A stretch of 64,000 nucleotides of DNA from Erysipelotrichaceae bacterium (lineage in GTDB: Bacteria > Bacillota_I > Bacilli_A > Erysipelotrichales > Erysipelotrichaceae): NCBI GenBank assembly GCA_015058845.1, contig SVBO01000002.1, forward strand, positions 1 through 64,000. The letters run 5' to 3'. Numbering within the stretch: position 1 is the stretch's first letter; each line of letters starts with the position of its first letter. Below the pieces are notes generated by a model. It searched no databases, had not been told where the DNA came from, and was given only the letters and a program-made list of their open reading frames with translations. The position numbers and the translations under genes are program-made. Shown one piece after another: positions 2,627-34,407 of the stretch.

Positions 2627-3423
2627 AGAATGAACGCCACCATTCCACAGGCTACACATATTACAAGTGAGCCTACTACTATTGCTGAATCACTCATACG
2701 CCACTTAAGTACTTTGTATCGAGTTCTCTTAGCACTAGGGTTATATCCTCTTGCCTCCATAGCATTGGCTAAGTCCTCTGCTTTCTGGAAGGCACTTACG
2801 AATAATGGAACGATCAGTGATAAGATCGCCATGATCTTTTCTTTTAAATTTCCTTCTTCAACATCTACCCCACGAGATGTTTGTGCTTTCATGATTCGAT
2901 CTGTTTCCTCGATCAATGTTGGAATAAAACGTAGGGCAATAGAGATCATCATAGCGATCTCATGGGCTGGGAATCCTACTTTACGAAATGGTGTTAACAA
3001 GAATTCTATACCTAGTGTTAAGTCTAATGGTTTAGTAGTGGCTGTTAATAGGGTCGTGATCATGATCATTAGAGCTAAGCGTACTGTGATGTATAGTGTT
3101 TGTGTTATGGCATCTATATGTACTGCAAAGCTACCAATATTGAATAATATATCGCCTGTTTTGATCACTAAGATATTTACGACTAATAGGAATACTAGCA
3201 TGAATACCATGGGTCTCATGGCTTTGATCAGGAAATCTAGTTTTAATCCTGCTGCAAAGATACATCCTAATACCACTGCACCGATAATGCCATATCCTAT
3301 AAATCCTGCTGGAAAGAATACTGCGATCAATGTGATGAACATGGCTAGAATCTTAGCTCTTGGATCTAAGCGATGGAAAGGTGTGTTTAATGGAATATAT
3401 CTACCAAGTGCTATATTCTTCAT
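2623..3423 (-). CDS. ecfT: ECF transporter transmembrane protein EcfT
   Basis: Membrane scaffold of the energy-coupling factor that joins the two ATPases to interchangeable vitamin-binding S components. It has 266 residues with several hydrophobic helices, and the family's cytoplasmic coupling motifs appear as AMEARGY (around residue 226) and the related AQTSRGVD. No S component is encoded next to it, which fits the group II design where dispersed S proteins share one module. Its start overlaps ecfA2 by 4 nt and its stop overlaps truA. Confidence 0.93.
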   Translation of the reverse strand: MKNIALGRYIPLNTPFHRLDPRAKILAMFITLIAVFFPAGFIGYGIIGAVVLGCIFAAGLKLDFLIKAMRPMVFMLVFLLVVNILVIKTGDILFNIGSFAVHIDAITQTLYITVRLALMIMITTLLTATTKPLDLTLGIEFLLTPFRKVGFPAHEIAMMISIALRFIPTLIEETDRIMKAQTSRGVDVEEGNLKEKIMAILSLIVPLFVSAFQKAEDLANAMEARGYNPSAKRTRYKVLKWRMSDSAIVVGSLVICVACGMVAFIL

Positions 3424-27770: not shown

Positions 27771-28511
27771 TTCTCTTACTCTTTGTGCTTTCATTCCTTG
27801 TAAGATCTTGCGTCTAGCTTCTTGTGCTTGGTCTTTGCTAGCATCTTTGATCCCTTCTAATGGATATGGGATCCCTAGGTTATCATACTTCACTTTACCC
27901 ATTGTATGGTAAGGAAGTACATCTACTGCCTTAATATTCTTAAGACCACCAATGAATTCTCCTAGGCGATATAATTCATCATCTGTATTGAGTTCTTCAT
28001 TCACATACACATGACGGATCCAGACAGGGATATTTCTTCTATCAAGTTCTTGTGCGAAAGCGATGATGTTATCAATGCGTTGAGATGTTACTTTGAGATG
28101 TTTTTGGGGATCGATGTTCTTGATGTCTAGTAACACTAGGTCTGTAGCATTTAGTAGAGCATCGAAGTTCTCAGGATGCTTAGGATCATAGGCTATACCA
28201 GATGTGTCTAGACACGTATGGATACCTTTTTTCTTAGCAGCCGTGAATAACTCTGCTACAAAGTCCTTCTGCATCATAGGTTCTCCCCCAGTGACCGTAA
28301 TACCACCTTGCTTATAGAAAGGGGCATTATGATCATAGCTTTCTAAGATCTCATCTACTTCCATCATCGTACCACCTTCAAATCTCCATGTATCAGGATT
28401 ATGGCAGTACAAACAGCGCATTGGACAACCCTGGACAAAGACGACCAATCGAATGCCAGGGCCATCTACGGTCCCCATACTTTCCAGGGAATGGATTCTA
28501 CCTAGTGTCAC
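27753..28511 (-). CDS. pflA: Pyruvate formate-lyase activating enzyme
   Basis: Radical SAM enzyme that abstracts hydrogen from the glycine of pyruvate formate-lyase. The CX3CX2C cluster motif is Cys29-Cys33-Cys36 in QGCPMRCLYCHNPDTW, with the GGEP SAM motif at TGGEPMMQ. 252 residues. It starts with GTG, whose G is shared with the TAG stop of the radical-domain gene (TAGTG), so translation is coupled. Here the substrate glycine sits on a separate 80-residue protein. Confidence 0.93.
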   Translation of the reverse strand: MTLGRIHSLESMGTVDGPGIRLVVFVQGCPMRCLYCHNPDTWRFEGGTMMEVDEILESYDHNAPFYKQGGITVTGGEPMMQKDFVAELFTAAKKKGIHTCLDTSGIAYDPKHPENFDALLNATDLVLLDIKNIDPQKHLKVTSQRIDNIIAFAQELDRRNIPVWIRHVYVNEELNTDDELYRLGEFIGGLKNIKAVDVLPYHTMGKVKYDNLGIPYPLEGIKDASKDQAQEARRKILQGMKAQRVREKGSQN

Positions 28512-28753
28512 TAGATAGTTTGATGGAATGTACGAGAGATAACTTCATCTTGTTGTGCCTTGGTCAACTTAATGAAGTTAACTGCATATCCGCTTACACG
28601 GATAGTTAATTGAGGATACTTTTCAGGGTGTGCTTGAGCATCCAATAGAGTTTCCTTAGTGAAAACATTTACGTTAAGATGGTGTCCACCTTTTGATGCA
28701 TAACCATCAAGTAGATCAACCAAGTTATCGATTTGAGCATTCATGTTAGTCAT
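28511..28753 (-). CDS. Stand-alone glycyl-radical domain of pyruvate formate-lyase
   Basis: This 80-residue protein matches the last part of PflB and the spare-part protein Grc[34 protein letters not shown] with radical Gly55, and [10 protein letters not shown] at the end. The adjacent catalytic gene stops before this region, so here the domain is probably an obligate subunit and not a repair part. The start at 28753 is 7 nt from AAGGAG; ATGs at 28759 and 28744 are less well placed. It overlaps the previous gene by 8 nt and pflA by 1 nt. Confidence 0.9.
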
Positions 28754-29006
28754 GGTCATTCTCCTTTTCTAGAGTCTTGTCATCTAGACCTTCCATCAAA
28801 GTAGGCACTCCACATGCCATATTTCCTTGACATTCTAGACAACCAAGTACTTCTACCTCTTTAACAATATTGTCATCTTTTTCTTCGAATTTTTCAAGTA
28901 ATATGCTCTGATCTTCCACTTTGATATTCATATGACCTACGCCATTTGACATAGACTTATCTAATTGAGCGATCAGATCATCGATCATTTTACGCTTATC
29001 ACTCAT
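28746..29006 (-). CDS. Small protein between the two parts of split pyruvate formate-lyase
   Basis: 86 residues, unknown family. Residues 11-31 ([20 protein letters not shown]) align by eye with the start of the radical domain next door ([20 protein letters not shown]): shared L..LD, G.GH.N..V. The radical loop RVSGYAV is absent; instead there is [10 protein letters not shown] (Cys56, Cys59, Cys65), a possible metal or cluster site, and an acidic tail. It overlaps the catalytic gene as TAATG and the radical-domain gene by 8 nt. I infer a third subunit or an assembly/protection factor of the enzyme. Confidence 0.8.
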
Positions 29007-31066
29007 TACTTATCACATCCGCAATCAAAGCCTTCTAATTCAACTTCTAGATCACTAGCAGTTACTACTGTTTTACCTAGAGCATCTGGGATGATTGAGA
29101 ATGTATTTGAGATACCATCCATTGCATCCTTATATGGGATCTTAGCAACTGATGATAGAGATGCTACAGCACCATGAGAATCACGTCTGTGCATTGGGTT
29201 AGCACCTGGTGCAAATGGTTCTCCAGCTTTACGTCCATCAGGTGTAGGACCTGTGTTACGTCCATATACTACGTTAGATGTGATAGTTAAGATAGATGTT
29301 GTTGGAACACCGTCACGATATGTATGATGACTTCTGATGTATTCCATGAATGTTTGAACGATCTCTACTGCGATAGCATCTACACGGTCATCATCGTTAC
29401 CATATTTAGGGAAATCGCCCTCTACTTCATAGTCTACTACAACGCCATTCTCATCACGGATAGTGCGTACTTTAGCATACTTGATAGCTGATAAAGAGTC
29501 AGCTACTACAGATAGACCTGCAATACCTGTTGCGAAGTAACGAGTTACTTTCTTATCATGTAATGCAAGCATCAACTTTTCATAGCAATACTTATCATGC
29601 ATGTAGTGAATTACGTTTAGAGTGTTAACATAAGCACTTGCTAACCACTTCATCATTTCTTTATATTTAGCCATTACTTCATCATAGTCTAAGTATTCAG
29701 AAGTAATTGGACGATATTCAGGACCTACTTGAGTCTTAGAAACTTCATCTACACCACCATTGATAGCATATAGTAAGCACTTAGCTAAGTTAGCACGAGC
29801 CCCGAAGAATTGCATTTCCTTACCAACTCTCATAGCAGATACGCAACATGCGATTGCATAGTCATCACCATGAGTTACACGCATCAAGTCATCGTTTTCA
29901 TATTGTACTGAAGAAGATTCGATAGAAGTCTTAGCACAGAAACGCTTGAAGTTCATTGGTAATCTTGTAGACCATAGTACTGTTAAGTTTGGTTCTGGTG
30001 CAGTACCTAGGTTGCTTAATGTATGTAAGTAACGGAAAGAAGACTTAGTTACCATGTGACGTCCATCGATACCTACACCACCGATACATTCTGTTACCCA
30101 AGTTGGGTCACCTGAGAATAGGTCATTGTATTCTGGTGTACGAGCGAATTTCACTAGACGTAACTTCATTACGAAGTGGTCAATGAATTCTTGGATCTCT
30201 TCTTCTGTATACTTGCCAGCTGCTAGGTCACGTTCAGCATAGATATCGATGAATGTAGATGTTCTACCTAAAGACATCGCTGCACCGTTTTGTTCCTTAA
30301 CTGCTGCTAAGTATCCTAGATATAACCATTGGATAGCTTCCTTAACATCACTTGCTGGTTTAGAAATATCGAAACCATAGATTGTACCTAGTTTCTTTAG
30401 ATCTTCTAAAGCACGGATCTGTTCAGATAGTTCTTCTCTTTCACGGATGATGTCATCGAACATTGCTGAGTTAGATGTACTATTCTTTTGAGCCATCTTA
30501 TCTTCGATCAAACGATCTACACCGTATAATGCTACACGACGATAGTCACCGATGATACGGCCACGTCCATAAGCATCAGGTAGACCAGTGATGATATGAC
30601 TAGAACGGCACTTTCTCATTTCTGGTGTATATACATCGAATACACCTGCGTTGTGTGTCTTTCTGTGAGTAGTGAAGAATTCACTGATCTCTGGGTCTAC
30701 TGTGTAACCATTATCTGAACATGCCTTTTCAGCCATACGGATACCACCATAAGGCATTAATGCACGTTTGAATGGTTTGTCAGTTTGGAAACCAACGATC
30801 TTTTCTAGATCTTGATTTAAATACCCTGCTCCATGAGATGTGATAGTAGATACGATCTTAGTATCCATATCAAGAACCCCGCCAGCTTCTCTTTCTTGGC
30901 GAGTTAGATCCATAACTTGATCCCATAATTGACGTGTAGCGTCTGTTGGACCAACTAAGAATGAATCATCTCCATCATATGGAGTGTAGTTTTTCTGGAT
31001 AAAGTCGCGAACATTGATCTCTCTTGACCAAATGCCATCAACAAATCCTTTGTAGAAATCTGCCAT
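29006..31066 (-). CDS. pflB: Pyruvate formate-lyase catalytic subunit lacking the radical domain
   Basis: Splits pyruvate with CoA into acetyl-CoA and formate. The catalytic pair Cys407-Cys408 is intact ([25 protein letters not shown]), as are PYGGIRMAE and FAPGANPMH. The chain ends at residue 686, soon after [10 protein letters not shown], with a new tail EGFDCGCDK, whereas typical PflB is about 750-770 residues and goes on to the glycyl-radical domain. That domain is on a separate gene at 28511-28753. This is not a simple frameshift: the end is followed by an independent 86-codon gene. Strong AAAGGGAGG site before ATG. Confidence 0.92.
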
Positions 31067-31121: not shown

Positions 31122-31391
31122 CTTTCTTTTCTTTAAAAAGGATAGTCTTATGCTTCCTTTTTTTGTGCTATTTATCAATTTCCGTGAATTTTATAGCAAG
31201 GTAGCGGTTACAGAAAAAGAAAATGTCCATCCTGTAGAGAATGGACATAGTTATATTGCTATAGATCATATGGGTAGAAGGATCCGAAAATAAAAACTGC
31301 TATCCTAGCAGTATCCTCTTAGCCCTCAACAAGTATATTATACAACAAAAAAAATTTAAATAAAAGACTGTTATTATATATTTCTATAGTA

Positions 31392-31397
31392 TATACT
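31392..31397 (+). promoter_or_regulatory. Possible -10 box of the candidate large RNA
   Basis: TATACT on the plus strand; the -35 region (TGTTAT or CTGTTA) is weak. It places the RNA start near 31404. Confidence 0.4.
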
Positions 31398-31452
31398 ACA
31401 AGTGAAAAGAAAGATATAAGACATATCAAAAGAAAAACAGGAGGTATGTGTT

Positions 31453-31479
31453 ATGAAGAAGGTACTATTAGAATATTAA
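31453..31479 (+). CDS. Possible 8-codon leader ORF
   Basis: AGGAGG, 8 nt, then ATG and MKKVLLEY followed by TAA. The ribosome site is as strong as those of real genes nearby, but such a short ORF could be chance or part of the RNA fold. Confidence 0.3.
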   Translation: MKKVLLEY

Positions 31480-31965
31480 GTCCTTTCCCAAAGTCATCAG
31501 GGAAACGAAAGATATGGTGAATAGAAAGTGTGAGGGTAAACCGATGGACACACTAATTGGAGTATTCACAATTTAATAGGTAAATGAATTGCGAGAGCAA
31601 TGATAACGAGAATATATTTTCTCAGTAAGTGATAAAGAGTAATCTAAGATTACTTAATATACGTGAATAAAATTTACAAGAATAAGGTATTATAGGATCA
31701 AGTTCTTGGATCGTCAGGGTATACATCTTGTGAGGTAAGATCTATATCCAAAGTGATCAACTAACAAAGAGGAATGATGAAATGGTAGTAGCGGACTATT
31801 TGGTTAGGGGATCAGGTGAAGAGGATGAGTAATAAGATATTACGATCTTGAGGATATCATATAGTGAAGTATGGTGTAGATATTGTATAAAGTATCTTAT
31901 GAATGACTTATAATATTATGGTAAGTAGAATGAGAAGTACTTATCAATAAACAGTGAATAAACTA

Positions 31966-31998
31966 AAAAGGCTTGTTGACGGGACAAGCCTTTTATAT
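31966..31998 (+). terminator. Terminator of the candidate large RNA
   Basis: Perfect 11-bp stem AAAAGGCTTGT/ACAAGCCTTTT with loop TGACGGG, then ATATT. A different terminator (32008-32036) serves nrdD, so this one implies a plus-strand transcript. Confidence 0.75.
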
Positions 31999-32040: not shown

Positions 32041-34407
32041 CTATAATTTAAAATATTGCTTAATATTAGAAACATTCACATACACTTCATGTGTATCCCC
32101 TTGTAGTACTACAAGAGAAGGAGCCTGCATGATACCATAGCTCAATGCCTGTTGCATATTTTCTTGAGCATCTACTACTGTATATGGGATATTATGTTGA
32201 TCTAGTAACTTCTTAATGATCACACAGTTTGGACAAGTCTTAGTCGTAAATAACAAGTATTGCTTCTCACCACTATTCACTACTTCCTTAACTTCCTTGA
32301 TCTCCTCTACAATAGACTTACTAGGTGTAATAGAAGTAGGATCTATCTTATACACTTTACGATCCTTGAATTCCTTAGACTTACCATCATTCCAGTTCTG
32401 TACAGGTCTATAATATCCTGTAATACGACTATATACCTCTGTCTTCTCTTGACAATGTGGACATACATATACTTCTCCTGGAATATATCCATGGTTCTTA
32501 CATACAGAATAGATCGGAGATAATGTGTAATATGGTAGAGAATAGTTCTCTGCGATCTTACGTACTAGATTTGCGGCTGCTTTCCAATCTGGTAACTTTT
32601 CCCCTAAGAAGGCATGGAAGACTGTTCCTGATGTATATAATGTTTGTAATTCATCTTGGATATCTAATGCCTCAAAGATATCTTCTGTATATCCTACTGG
32701 TAAATGAGAACTATTTGTATAGTAAGGTACTCCACCCTTCTCACTAGCAGTCTTGATATCTGGATAGTGTTCTACATCATGTTTTGCTAAGCGATAGCTT
32801 GTAGATTCAGCTGGGGTAGCTTCTAGGTTATATAGATCATTATACATCTCTTGATAGTCAGATAATCTCTCTCTCATATGGTTAAGTACCTTCTTACTGA
32901 ACTCTACTGTCTCAGTATGTGTCATATCTTTCCCGATCCACTTTGCATTTAGTCCCGCTTCATTTAAGCCTACTAGACCGATCGTAGAGAAGTGATTATC
33001 AAAGCTTCCTAAGTATCTCTTAGTATATGGATATAGGCCCTCATTCAATAACTTAGTCACTACATCACGTTTGATCTTAAGAGAACGTGCCGCAATGTCC
33101 ATCAACTTATCTAAACGCTCAAAGAAATCACTCTCATTCTCTGCTAGATAAGCAATTCTTGGCATATTGATCGTAACAACACCGATAGAACCAGTGCTCT
33201 CACCACTTCCAAAGAATCCACCTGATTTCTTTCTTAGTTCACGTAAGTCTAAACGCAAACGGCAGCACATAGAACGTACATCACTTGGTTCCATATCTGA
33301 GTTGATGTAGTTAGAGAAGTATGGTGTTCCATACTTAGAAGTCATTTCGAATAATAGTTTATTATTCTCTGTTTCTGACCAATCAAAGTTACGTGTAATA
33401 GAATATGTTGGAATTGGATATTGGAAACCTCTTCCATTATAATCTCCCCCGATCATGATCTCGATGAATGCTTTATTGATCATATCCATTTCCTTTTGAC
33501 AGTCTTTATACTTAAAGTTTTGTTCCTTGCCTCCTACGATACAGTTTAATTCTGCTAGGTCATTAGGTACTGTCCAGTCTAATGTGATATTAGAGAATGG
33601 GGCTTGTGTTCCCCAACGAGAAGGTGTGTTTACGCCATATACGAAGGATTCGATGCATTTCTTAGTTTGCTCATATGTTAGATTATCAGTCTTTACAAAT
33701 GGAGCTAAGTAAGTATCGAAAGAAGAGAAGGCTTGTGCTCCTGCCCATTCATTCTGCATGATACCCAGGAAGTTTACCATTTGGTTACATAGAGTCGCTA
33801 GATGTTTAGCTGGAGCAGAAGTGATCTTACCACTCACTCCTCCTAATCCCTCTTGGATCAATTGTTTCAATGACCATCCTGCACAATATCCTGTCAACAT
33901 AGATAAGTCATGAATATGCATATCCGCATTTCTGTGCGCTTGCGCAATCTCATCATCATAGATCTCTGATAACCAATAGTTCGCTGTAATAGCTCCACTA
34001 TTACTTAAGATCAATCCCCCTACAGAATAAGTTACCGTAGAGTTCTCCTTAACACGCCAGTCATTTACCTTTACATAATTATCTACTAGTTCTTTATAGT
34101 TTAATAGAGTAGACTTCGTATTACGGATCTTTTCTCTTTGCTTACGATATAAGATATATGCTTTAGCTACATCAGCATACCCCGCTTGGATCAATACATT
34201 CTCTACACTGTCTTGAATGTCTTCTACTTCAATGATATTATTCTTGATCTTGCTCTCGAAATCTGCTGTTACACGTAATGCTAATAGATCGATCACACTA
34301 TCGTGGAATTGTTTATTCTGGGCTTCAAATGCTTTACGGATAGCCGCTGCGATCTTTTGAATATTGAATTGAGCATGCGTACCATCACGCTTCATTACAT
34401 GATACAT
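32041..34407 (-). CDS. nrdD: Anaerobic ribonucleoside-triphosphate reductase with C-terminal glutaredoxin domain
   Basis: Class III reductase that makes deoxyribonucleotides without oxygen. An ATP-cone (about 1-95) leads into the catalytic barrel; a zinc site CKNH...CPHC precedes the radical loop SRITGYYRPV (Gly664). After a linker, residues about 715-788 form a glutaredoxin/NrdH-like domain with C725-P-N-C728 and the cis-Pro QAPS motif. Plain NrdD ends near residue 700, so this is a fusion. It suggests reduction by an attached dithiol protein and not formate as electron donor; that is inference from domain content. Confidence 0.93.
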   Translation of the reverse strand: MYHVMKRDGTHAQFNIQKIAAAIRKAFEAQNKQFHDSVIDLLALRVTADFESKIKNNIIEVEDIQDSVENVLIQAGYADVAKAYILYRKQREKIRNTKSTLLNYKELVDNYVKVNDWRVKENSTVTYSVGGLILSNSGAITANYWLSEIYDDEIAQAHRNADMHIHDLSMLTGYCAGWSLKQLIQEGLGGVSGKITSAPAKHLATLCNQMVNFLGIMQNEWAGAQAFSSFDTYLAPFVKTDNLTYEQTKKCIESFVYGVNTPSRWGTQAPFSNITLDWTVPNDLAELNCIVGGKEQNFKYKDCQKEMDMINKAFIEIMIGGDYNGRGFQYPIPTYSITRNFDWSETENNKLLFEMTSKYGTPYFSNYINSDMEPSDVRSMCCRLRLDLRELRKKSGGFFGSGESTGSIGVVTINMPRIAYLAENESDFFERLDKLMDIAARSLKIKRDVVTKLLNEGLYPYTKRYLGSFDNHFSTIGLVGLNEAGLNAKWIGKDMTHTETVEFSKKVLNHMRERLSDYQEMYNDLYNLEATPAESTSYRLAKHDVEHYPDIKTASEKGGVPYYTNSSHLPVGYTEDIFEALDIQDELQTLYTSGTVFHAFLGEKLPDWKAAANLVRKIAENYSLPYYTLSPIYSVCKNHGYIPGEVYVCPHCQEKTEVYSRITGYYRPVQNWNDGKSKEFKDRKVYKIDPTSITPSKSIVEEIKEVKEVVNSGEKQYLLFTTKTCPNCVIIKKLLDQHNIPYTVVDAQENMQQALSYGIMQAPSLVVLQGDTHEVYVNVSNIKQYFKL

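Follow-up and report, generated by a model that had tools for sequence, protein, structure and literature searches.

Does the interval between pflB (minus strand, 29006–31066) and nrdD (minus strand, 32041–34407) of this Erysipelotrichaceae bacterium encode an RNA, and to which class would such an RNA belong? The names pflB and nrdD were assigned from reading of the sequences. The whole stretch of 64,000 nt that was analysed is called the window below. A preliminary description had proposed a large structured RNA here, belonging to a class such as ROOL, GOLLD or OLE or to a new one, and had taken an anaerobic role as a hint from the two neighbouring genes.

A predicted stand-alone RNA between pflB and nrdD

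As shown in Table 1, the interval contains a predicted transcription unit of its own. The observation of a structured, ORF-poor and independently bounded RNA was confirmed, and the −10 box, the GNRA hairpin, the dedicated terminator and the opposing nrdD terminator were all found where they had been placed. The plus strand of 31404–31998 contains no ORF that reaches 30 aa, and the minus strand has only chance ORFs of 33–36 aa. The interval is thus free of ORFs at the usual length cut-offs, but two conserved mini-ORFs, ORF1 and ORF2, are central to the RNA. These mini-ORFs, an alternative pairing and a conserved divergent promoter were absent from the preliminary description.

The minimum free energy (MFE) of the interval was −135.9 kcal/mol, with z = −6.0 on the plus strand (100 dinucleotide shuffles) and z = −2.8 on the minus strand. 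When the terminator was left out, z was −3.8 on the plus strand and −1.1 on the minus strand. Forty copies from the family described below gave a mean z of −4.6 without terminator, and their minus strands −3.4. Since the minus strands fold well too, folding energy is weak evidence for the strand, and the argument is carried by covariation and the mini-ORFs.

The stem of the P1 hairpin is formed by 31421–31427/31443–31449 and extended by 31415–31419/31451–31455, with SD1 at the edge of the loop and AUG1 in the outer stem. H2 begins 5 nt past the ORF1 stop, and its loop L2 holds UCAUCA (31494–31499). The GNRA hairpin is found at the same place in the family, e.g. as CAGC-GAAA-GCUG. In almost every copy, the alignment places the −35 region element about 20 nt 5′ of the −10 box.

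Table 1. Features of the RNA locus in the window (SD, Shine-Dalgarno sequence; S, switching strand).
Feature	Position	Strand	Basis or remark
Conserved upstream (−35 region) element of family promoter, AGACTGTT	31365–31372	+	alignment
−10 box TATACT (family: TATATT)	31392–31397	+	sequence, alignment
Stand-alone RNA, predicted transcription start (~31404) to terminator end	31404–31996	+	~593 nt; promoter and terminator positions, z −6.0
P1 hairpin	31415–31455	+	MFE; second copy with same stem
SD1 GGAGG	31440–31444	+	sequence; SD present in 89/92 copies
ORF1, MKKVLLEY and stop, 8 codons	31453–31479	+	pattern search, coding signature
Hairpin H2, TTTCCC 31484–31489/GGGAAA 31500–31505	31484–31505	+	MFE; position conserved in family
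Switching strand S	31515–31523	+	complementarity; family covariation
Core hairpin GUGUG 31528–31532/CACAC 31549–31553, around SD2 and AUG2	31528–31553	+	MFE
SD2 GAGG	31532–31535	+	GAGG there in 86/92 copies
ORF2, MDTLIGVFTI and stop	31544–31576	+	10 codons in window
UAUUCAC, alternative partner of S inside ORF2	31563–31569	+	complementarity
GNRA hairpin AUUGC-GAGA-GCAAU	31588–31601	+	sequence, MFE
3′ domain, several hairpins enclosed in a long-range stem	31602–31960	+	MFE; z −3.1 alone
Intrinsic terminator of the RNA	31966–31996	+	sequence AAAAGGCUUGUUGACGGGACAAGCCUUUU = 31966–31994
Separate nrdD terminator, facing that of the RNA	32035–32012	−	terminator search
Divergent −10 box TATAAT	31337–31342	−	TATAAT upstream in 80/88 copies
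Conserved start (TGTTGRGG) of predicted divergent transcript, TTGTTGAGGGC	31322–31332	−	alignment of copies
Terminator of divergent transcript, ACTGCTAGGATAGCAGT-TTTTT	31286–31312	−	predicted RNA ~45 nt in window

As a separate observation, pflB (28511–31066, minus strand) looks split. The 686-aa ORF lacks the usual glycyl-radical motif at its end. A separate overlapping ORF of 82 aa (28511–28759, minus strand) carries RVSGYAVNF, and an 86-aa cysteine-containing ORF (28746–29006, minus strand) lies between the two.

Copies and distribution of the family

A second copy was found on the minus strand of the same genome, 70 kb away (G000:C8:101759–102009). The two share 87% identity in their first 258 nt; the later part has diverged yet has a similar fold (z −3.1), so that in this comparison the 5′ half is the conserved half. 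The terminator of the second copy (GAAAGGCTTGTTTCC...) was apparently cut by an insertion beside a transposase-like ORF (L003, ~3280–3340; by eye). The sister species, the only sampled congener, gave six BLAST stretches on two contigs, in tandem units of about 170–200 nt. This array (L012, G001:C77:27062–27933, and L013, G001:C37:1–483) includes five or more complete 5′ modules (ORF1-H2-core-ORF2), and the two contig ends are probably one array split in assembly. Tandem duplicates of the 5′ module were also seen in the largest genus (L059, L080 and L093), with an upstream unit encoding MKEVLLNY in L059 and L080.

A DNA search of relatives with the whole sequence recovered the nearest copies only. 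Of its two weak matches, the one in G048 is a real copy with ORF1 and the one in G065 is unrelated. A DNA pattern of the mini-ORF gave 9 matches in 98 relatives, and the reversed control gave 0. The pattern of ORF1 with its SD matched 34 contigs among the GTDB representatives (84,980 species), all of them titled Erysipelotrichales, Erysipelotrichaceae, Solobacterium, Holdemania, Lactimicrobium or unnamed Firmicutes metagenome-assembled genomes (MAGs). The pattern holds about 42 bits, and we therefore estimate that about 0.1 chance hits were to be expected in this collection. No match to it was detected in 2.9 million viral contigs. The plasmid and phage searches gave no family member, and no phage match for a homologue.

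Because a search based on ORF1 would be circular, a covariance model was restricted to the downstream core (AGAAAGU..GUCUGCAUGAGGACAGACCAAUGG), with ORF1 excluded. Among 316 genomes of the order, many of the surveyed genomes being MAGs, 79 were positive, all from the window's own family (10/80 by genus); the other family of the order gave no positives. Samples from the class (395 genomes) and from the phylum (295 genomes) gave matches in members of Erysipelotrichaceae only. Upstream of nearly all hits of this ORF1-blind model lies an octapeptide ORF.

In total, 92 distinct copies were recovered from about 80 genomes, all Erysipelotrichaceae, including Holdemania, Lactimicrobium and 'Solobacterium'. 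The set consists of the core-model hits and the window lineage; two copies were set aside as their ORF1 was unrecognisable. A typical copy is stand-alone, chromosomal and about 400 nt in length. The range is 259–720 nt (median ~400), with the RNA of the window at the long end, and 81/92 copies have a terminator of their own. The RNA is usually single-copy, is present in about 60 of 69 sampled genomes of one genus and occurs in ten genera overall. Cultured carriers are Holdemania filiformis, H. massiliensis and Lactimicrobium massiliense.

The core of the window copy is too divergent for the core model (E 0.01 was not reached). Its membership was therefore judged by ORF1, H2, the order of the parts, ORF2, the GNRA hairpin, the promoter and the divergent promoter, and intermediates in the sister species also link it to the family. 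SD1, ORF1, H2, S, SD2/ORF2, the GNRA hairpin and the terminator follow each other 5′ to 3′ in the window copy and, with few exceptions, in the 92 family copies. Lack of conservation or covariation in relatives, and similarity to a decayed coding gene, had been named beforehand as grounds for giving up the RNA; instead, 92 copies were found, with compensatory changes among them, and the conserved RNA features make a decayed gene unlikely. Conservation and covariation, together with the promoter, the terminator and the absence of Rfam matches, support a large structured RNA of a possibly new class. The proposed anaerobic role was left unsupported: the genes next to homologues are diverse and unrelated, and the neighbour of the second copy in this genome is nitroreductase-like.

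ORF1 encodes a conserved octapeptide

The consensus of ORF1 in the family is M[KR][KE][VI]LLE[YF] followed by a stop codon. Copies of the window genus have in common a strong Shine-Dalgarno sequence, ATG and eight codons, MK[KE][VI]LLE[YF] and a stop. Variants include MKEVLKEI, MKEILLEI, MRKILLNY and MKRVLFKP; TAA, TGA and TAG are all used as stops, and some lineages have 1–2 extra residues. Changes were counted along a tree built from the RNA minus ORF1. Codons 2–8 have undergone 93 synonymous and 51 non-synonymous changes, in a set filtered by a loose peptide pattern that dropped only two copies, while 21% of random single changes would be synonymous. Changes at codon positions 1, 2 and 3 numbered 63, 21 and 108. 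This pattern of substitution shows purifying selection acting on the predicted ORF1 at the level of the peptide. The locus is almost certainly a member of a real, conserved family of structured RNAs with a translated ORF1.

ORF2 and two competing pairings of strand S

ORF2 has exactly 5 codons in 62/92 copies (shuffles: mean 5.4, maximum 13) and 5–6 codons in 72/92 (shuffles: mean 10.4, maximum 21). Its AUG is invariant, follows CCR/CCC and usually stands in AUGGAC; TAA, TGA and TAG all serve as stops. The sequence of ORF2 is otherwise free, and therefore its length or position seems to outweigh its peptide.

Strand S, between H2 and SD2, is complementary both to L2 and to a downstream segment. 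Five complementary positions between L2 and S were found in 74/85 copies, against a mean of 49.7 and a maximum of 59 for shuffled partners, in shuffles that are blind to relatedness. The L2/S pairs were GCAGA/UCUGC (50 copies), GUAGA/UCUAC (9), CCAGA/UCUGG (7), ACAGA/UCUGU (7) and UCAGA/UCUGA (1), so that GC, CG, AU and UA are all used at one position. The changes fall on several separate lineages and genera (e.g. Holdemania has UCUGG, g48 and g17 have UCUAC, and g30 and g79 have UCUGU). S is also complementary to the segment just 5′ of AUG2 (GUCUG/CAGAC, GUCUA/UAGAC), and column 28/38 of this helix is GC in 16 cases, AU in 7 and GU in 5. Both pairings are possible in 74/86 copies; in some lineages (12/86 copies) the downstream pairing is poor or missing.

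The window lineage keeps both options, and the same either/or logic, with other sequences. In the window, UGGUGA (31515–31520) can pair with L2, and the overlapping GUGAAUA (31517–31523) with UAUUCAC in ORF2. In the sister species the options are UGAUGA:UCAUCA or AUGAUGAAU:RUUCAUUAU. The alignments thus show the parts and two competing complementarities of S. The best argument that the either/or choice is likely functional is that both complementarities persist despite changed sequence and register. The two helices could, instead of forming a regulated switch, serve in sequence or as a fixed pseudoknot. A pairing of H2 with the conserved CUGAAUA after ORF2, noticed on visual inspection of some copies, was inconsistent and was dropped.

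The 3′ domain

The sequence of the 3′ domain diverges between copies. Within the largest genus it is strongly conserved and its hairpins are compensated, 18/56 consensus pairs having two-sided changes (11 sequences). A strongly conserved motif of this genus, CUUCACCGGAAACANCAAUCCGGAUAUU (A4 columns 301–325), contains a CUUC that could pair with SD1. For one genus, the consensus fold predicts such a long-range SD1:CUUC helix, both sides being invariant.

Proposed mechanism

We infer transcription, translation, switching and output of the RNA from its sequence. A ribosome covers about 12 nt beyond its A site. A ribosome that has completed ORF1 or is stalled at its end would thus cover the foot of H2 and melt it; S would be released from L2 and could pair downstream, enclosing SD2 and AUG2. 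With ORF1 empty, H2 would form and capture S in a pseudoknot, and ORF2 would be left open. The fold, the stability or the partner of the 3′ domain may then depend on which state the 5′ module is in. The RNA would in this way report translation status, either in general or at a particular step, e.g. termination after Leu-Leu-Glu-Tyr. Because the RNA has its own terminator and no fixed downstream gene, an output in trans, via the 3′ domain or RNA stability, is the most likely one.

We regard the interval as one copy of an apparently undescribed family of stand-alone, partly translated structured RNAs of Erysipelotrichaceae, for which a two-state mechanism operated by ribosomes is the best explanation, with about an even chance of being right. 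We tentatively propose, with slightly less than even confidence, a new class of ribosome-operated switch without a cis gene, in which translation of the octapeptide toggles S, gates ORF2 and sets a trans-acting RNA with tertiary structure. What is new would be the RNA class and the combination of parts; leader-peptide switching itself is a known principle.

Alternative explanations and comparison with known systems

ORF1 might instead encode the product itself, a short signal or precursor peptide whose synthesis is tuned by the RNA structure and whose dosage is raised by the arrays. Peptide-level selection on ORF1 and its presence in each complete unit of the sister-species array would fit. 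To our knowledge, mccA, which encodes the heptapeptide of microcin C7, is among very few genes of comparable size. However, signals and toxins usually diversify, and the octapeptide is nearly fixed from genus to genus. Among the neighbours of the copies, no gene for modification or export was found in fixed linkage, in contrast to mccA, and ORF1 lies in a conserved structured RNA. ORF2 is conserved in length and not in sequence, and the elaborate conserved 3′ domain would be left unexplained. We consider this explanation rather unlikely. Dual-function RNAs (RNAIII, SgrS, SR1) resemble the family in being stand-alone, several hundred nt in length and translated (as predicted here), but they encode peptides of about 26–60 aa, whereas the mini-ORFs here have 8 and 5 codons.

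An ornate RNA of the ROOL, GOLLD or OLE type, i.e. a scaffold or cage whose mini-ORFs only recruit ribosomes or protect the RNA, would account for the length, the dense hairpins, the GNRA loops and the stand-alone gene. ROOL, GOLLD and OLE RNAs are likewise 300–800 nt in length, with their own transcription unit, dense structure, GNRA loops and pseudoknots. No family of Rfam (release 15) was detected in the 64-kb window at the gathering threshold, and a relaxed search of the window and homologues gave sub-threshold chance hits only. The ROOL model had no hit in the window or 18 homologous loci at the gathering threshold, none in the interval with E relaxed to 10 and none in two homologues with E relaxed to 5; the GOLLD and OLE models had no match in the window or homologues. 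ROOL and GOLLD are located in phages and prophages, ROOL often near tRNA islands (PMC12286853). The 64-kb window contains no tRNA genes. Membership in ROOL, GOLLD or OLE, which had been suggested for the interval, was thus excluded by model search, and the genomic location likewise excludes ROOL and GOLLD. The present family is shorter, chromosomal, confined to one bacterial family and not linked to phages or tRNA arrays. Its conserved half is the 5′ one, in contrast to the conserved 3′ half of GOLLD. It has two mini-ORFs, one under apparent peptide-level selection, and the ORFs are conserved as coding sequence. An ornate RNA in this sense is unlikely. In the literature searched, no paper was found that has the octapeptide or a motif of this kind from these bacteria; a 2017 catalogue of 224 candidate RNAs was compared only through Rfam.

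A cis-acting leader or attenuator would act on a downstream gene, such as the pepP-like M24 peptidase gene which lies next, 3′ of the RNA, in 24 copies of several genera. The family shares with leader-peptide attenuators and arrest leaders (ermCL, the cat86 leader, tnaC, mifM) a short ORF with a good SD, a hairpin right after it, and two mutually exclusive helices deciding access to the next ribosome site. Apparent peptide-level selection and mutually exclusive complementarities were both found, but there was no regulated downstream gene in the transcript: the 'next gene' has 5 codons, the RNA has its own terminator and a large conserved 3′ domain, and no downstream gene is fixed. Downstream neighbours vary, being divergent, convergent or unrelated, and are often convergent, as in the window. 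A pepP leader function was rejected because of the strong terminators, which precede any gene, and the convergent neighbours. A cis-acting role is very unlikely.

The upstream region holds a divergent promoter. In the family this unit consists of TATAAT, TGTTGRGG and an immediate terminator, with a predicted RNA of 25–45 nt; an upstream terminator hairpin was found on the divergent strand in 62/88 copies and on the forward strand in 10/88. The main RNA might accordingly be the gated mRNA of toxic mini-genes and the divergent RNA its antitoxin, in a pair like the type I toxin-antitoxin systems. Conservation of the divergent promoter and terminator in most copies, the gated ribosome sites and the possible pairing of SD1 with the 3′ CUUC speak for such a pair, and tisB/istR-1 likewise joins a gated mini-ORF with a short divergent RNA. 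However, complementarity between the divergent transcript and the main RNA was at the level of shuffled partners (8.78 nt against 8.66 nt), and the divergent transcript was rejected as antisense partner. The family also differs from tisB/istR-1 in having no hydrophobic toxin, since a membrane toxin would require a longer and less charged peptide, and a single copy is maintained across a genus. A toxin-antitoxin pair is highly improbable.

A decayed coding gene or chance structure, to which nothing but the lack of long ORFs points, has a negligible probability because of the conserved RNA features, namely conservation with compensatory changes and a conserved promoter and terminator, and the coding signature is limited to 8 codons.

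Significance

The carriers are common bacteria of animal and human guts, and the RNA class they share has no Rfam match and no description in the literature searched. As judged from its substitutions, ORF1 would be among the shortest ORFs with demonstrable peptide-level selection, and it lies inside an RNA without a cis-regulated gene. If the ribosome-operated switch proposed above is real, the RNA would sense translation and report on it in trans.
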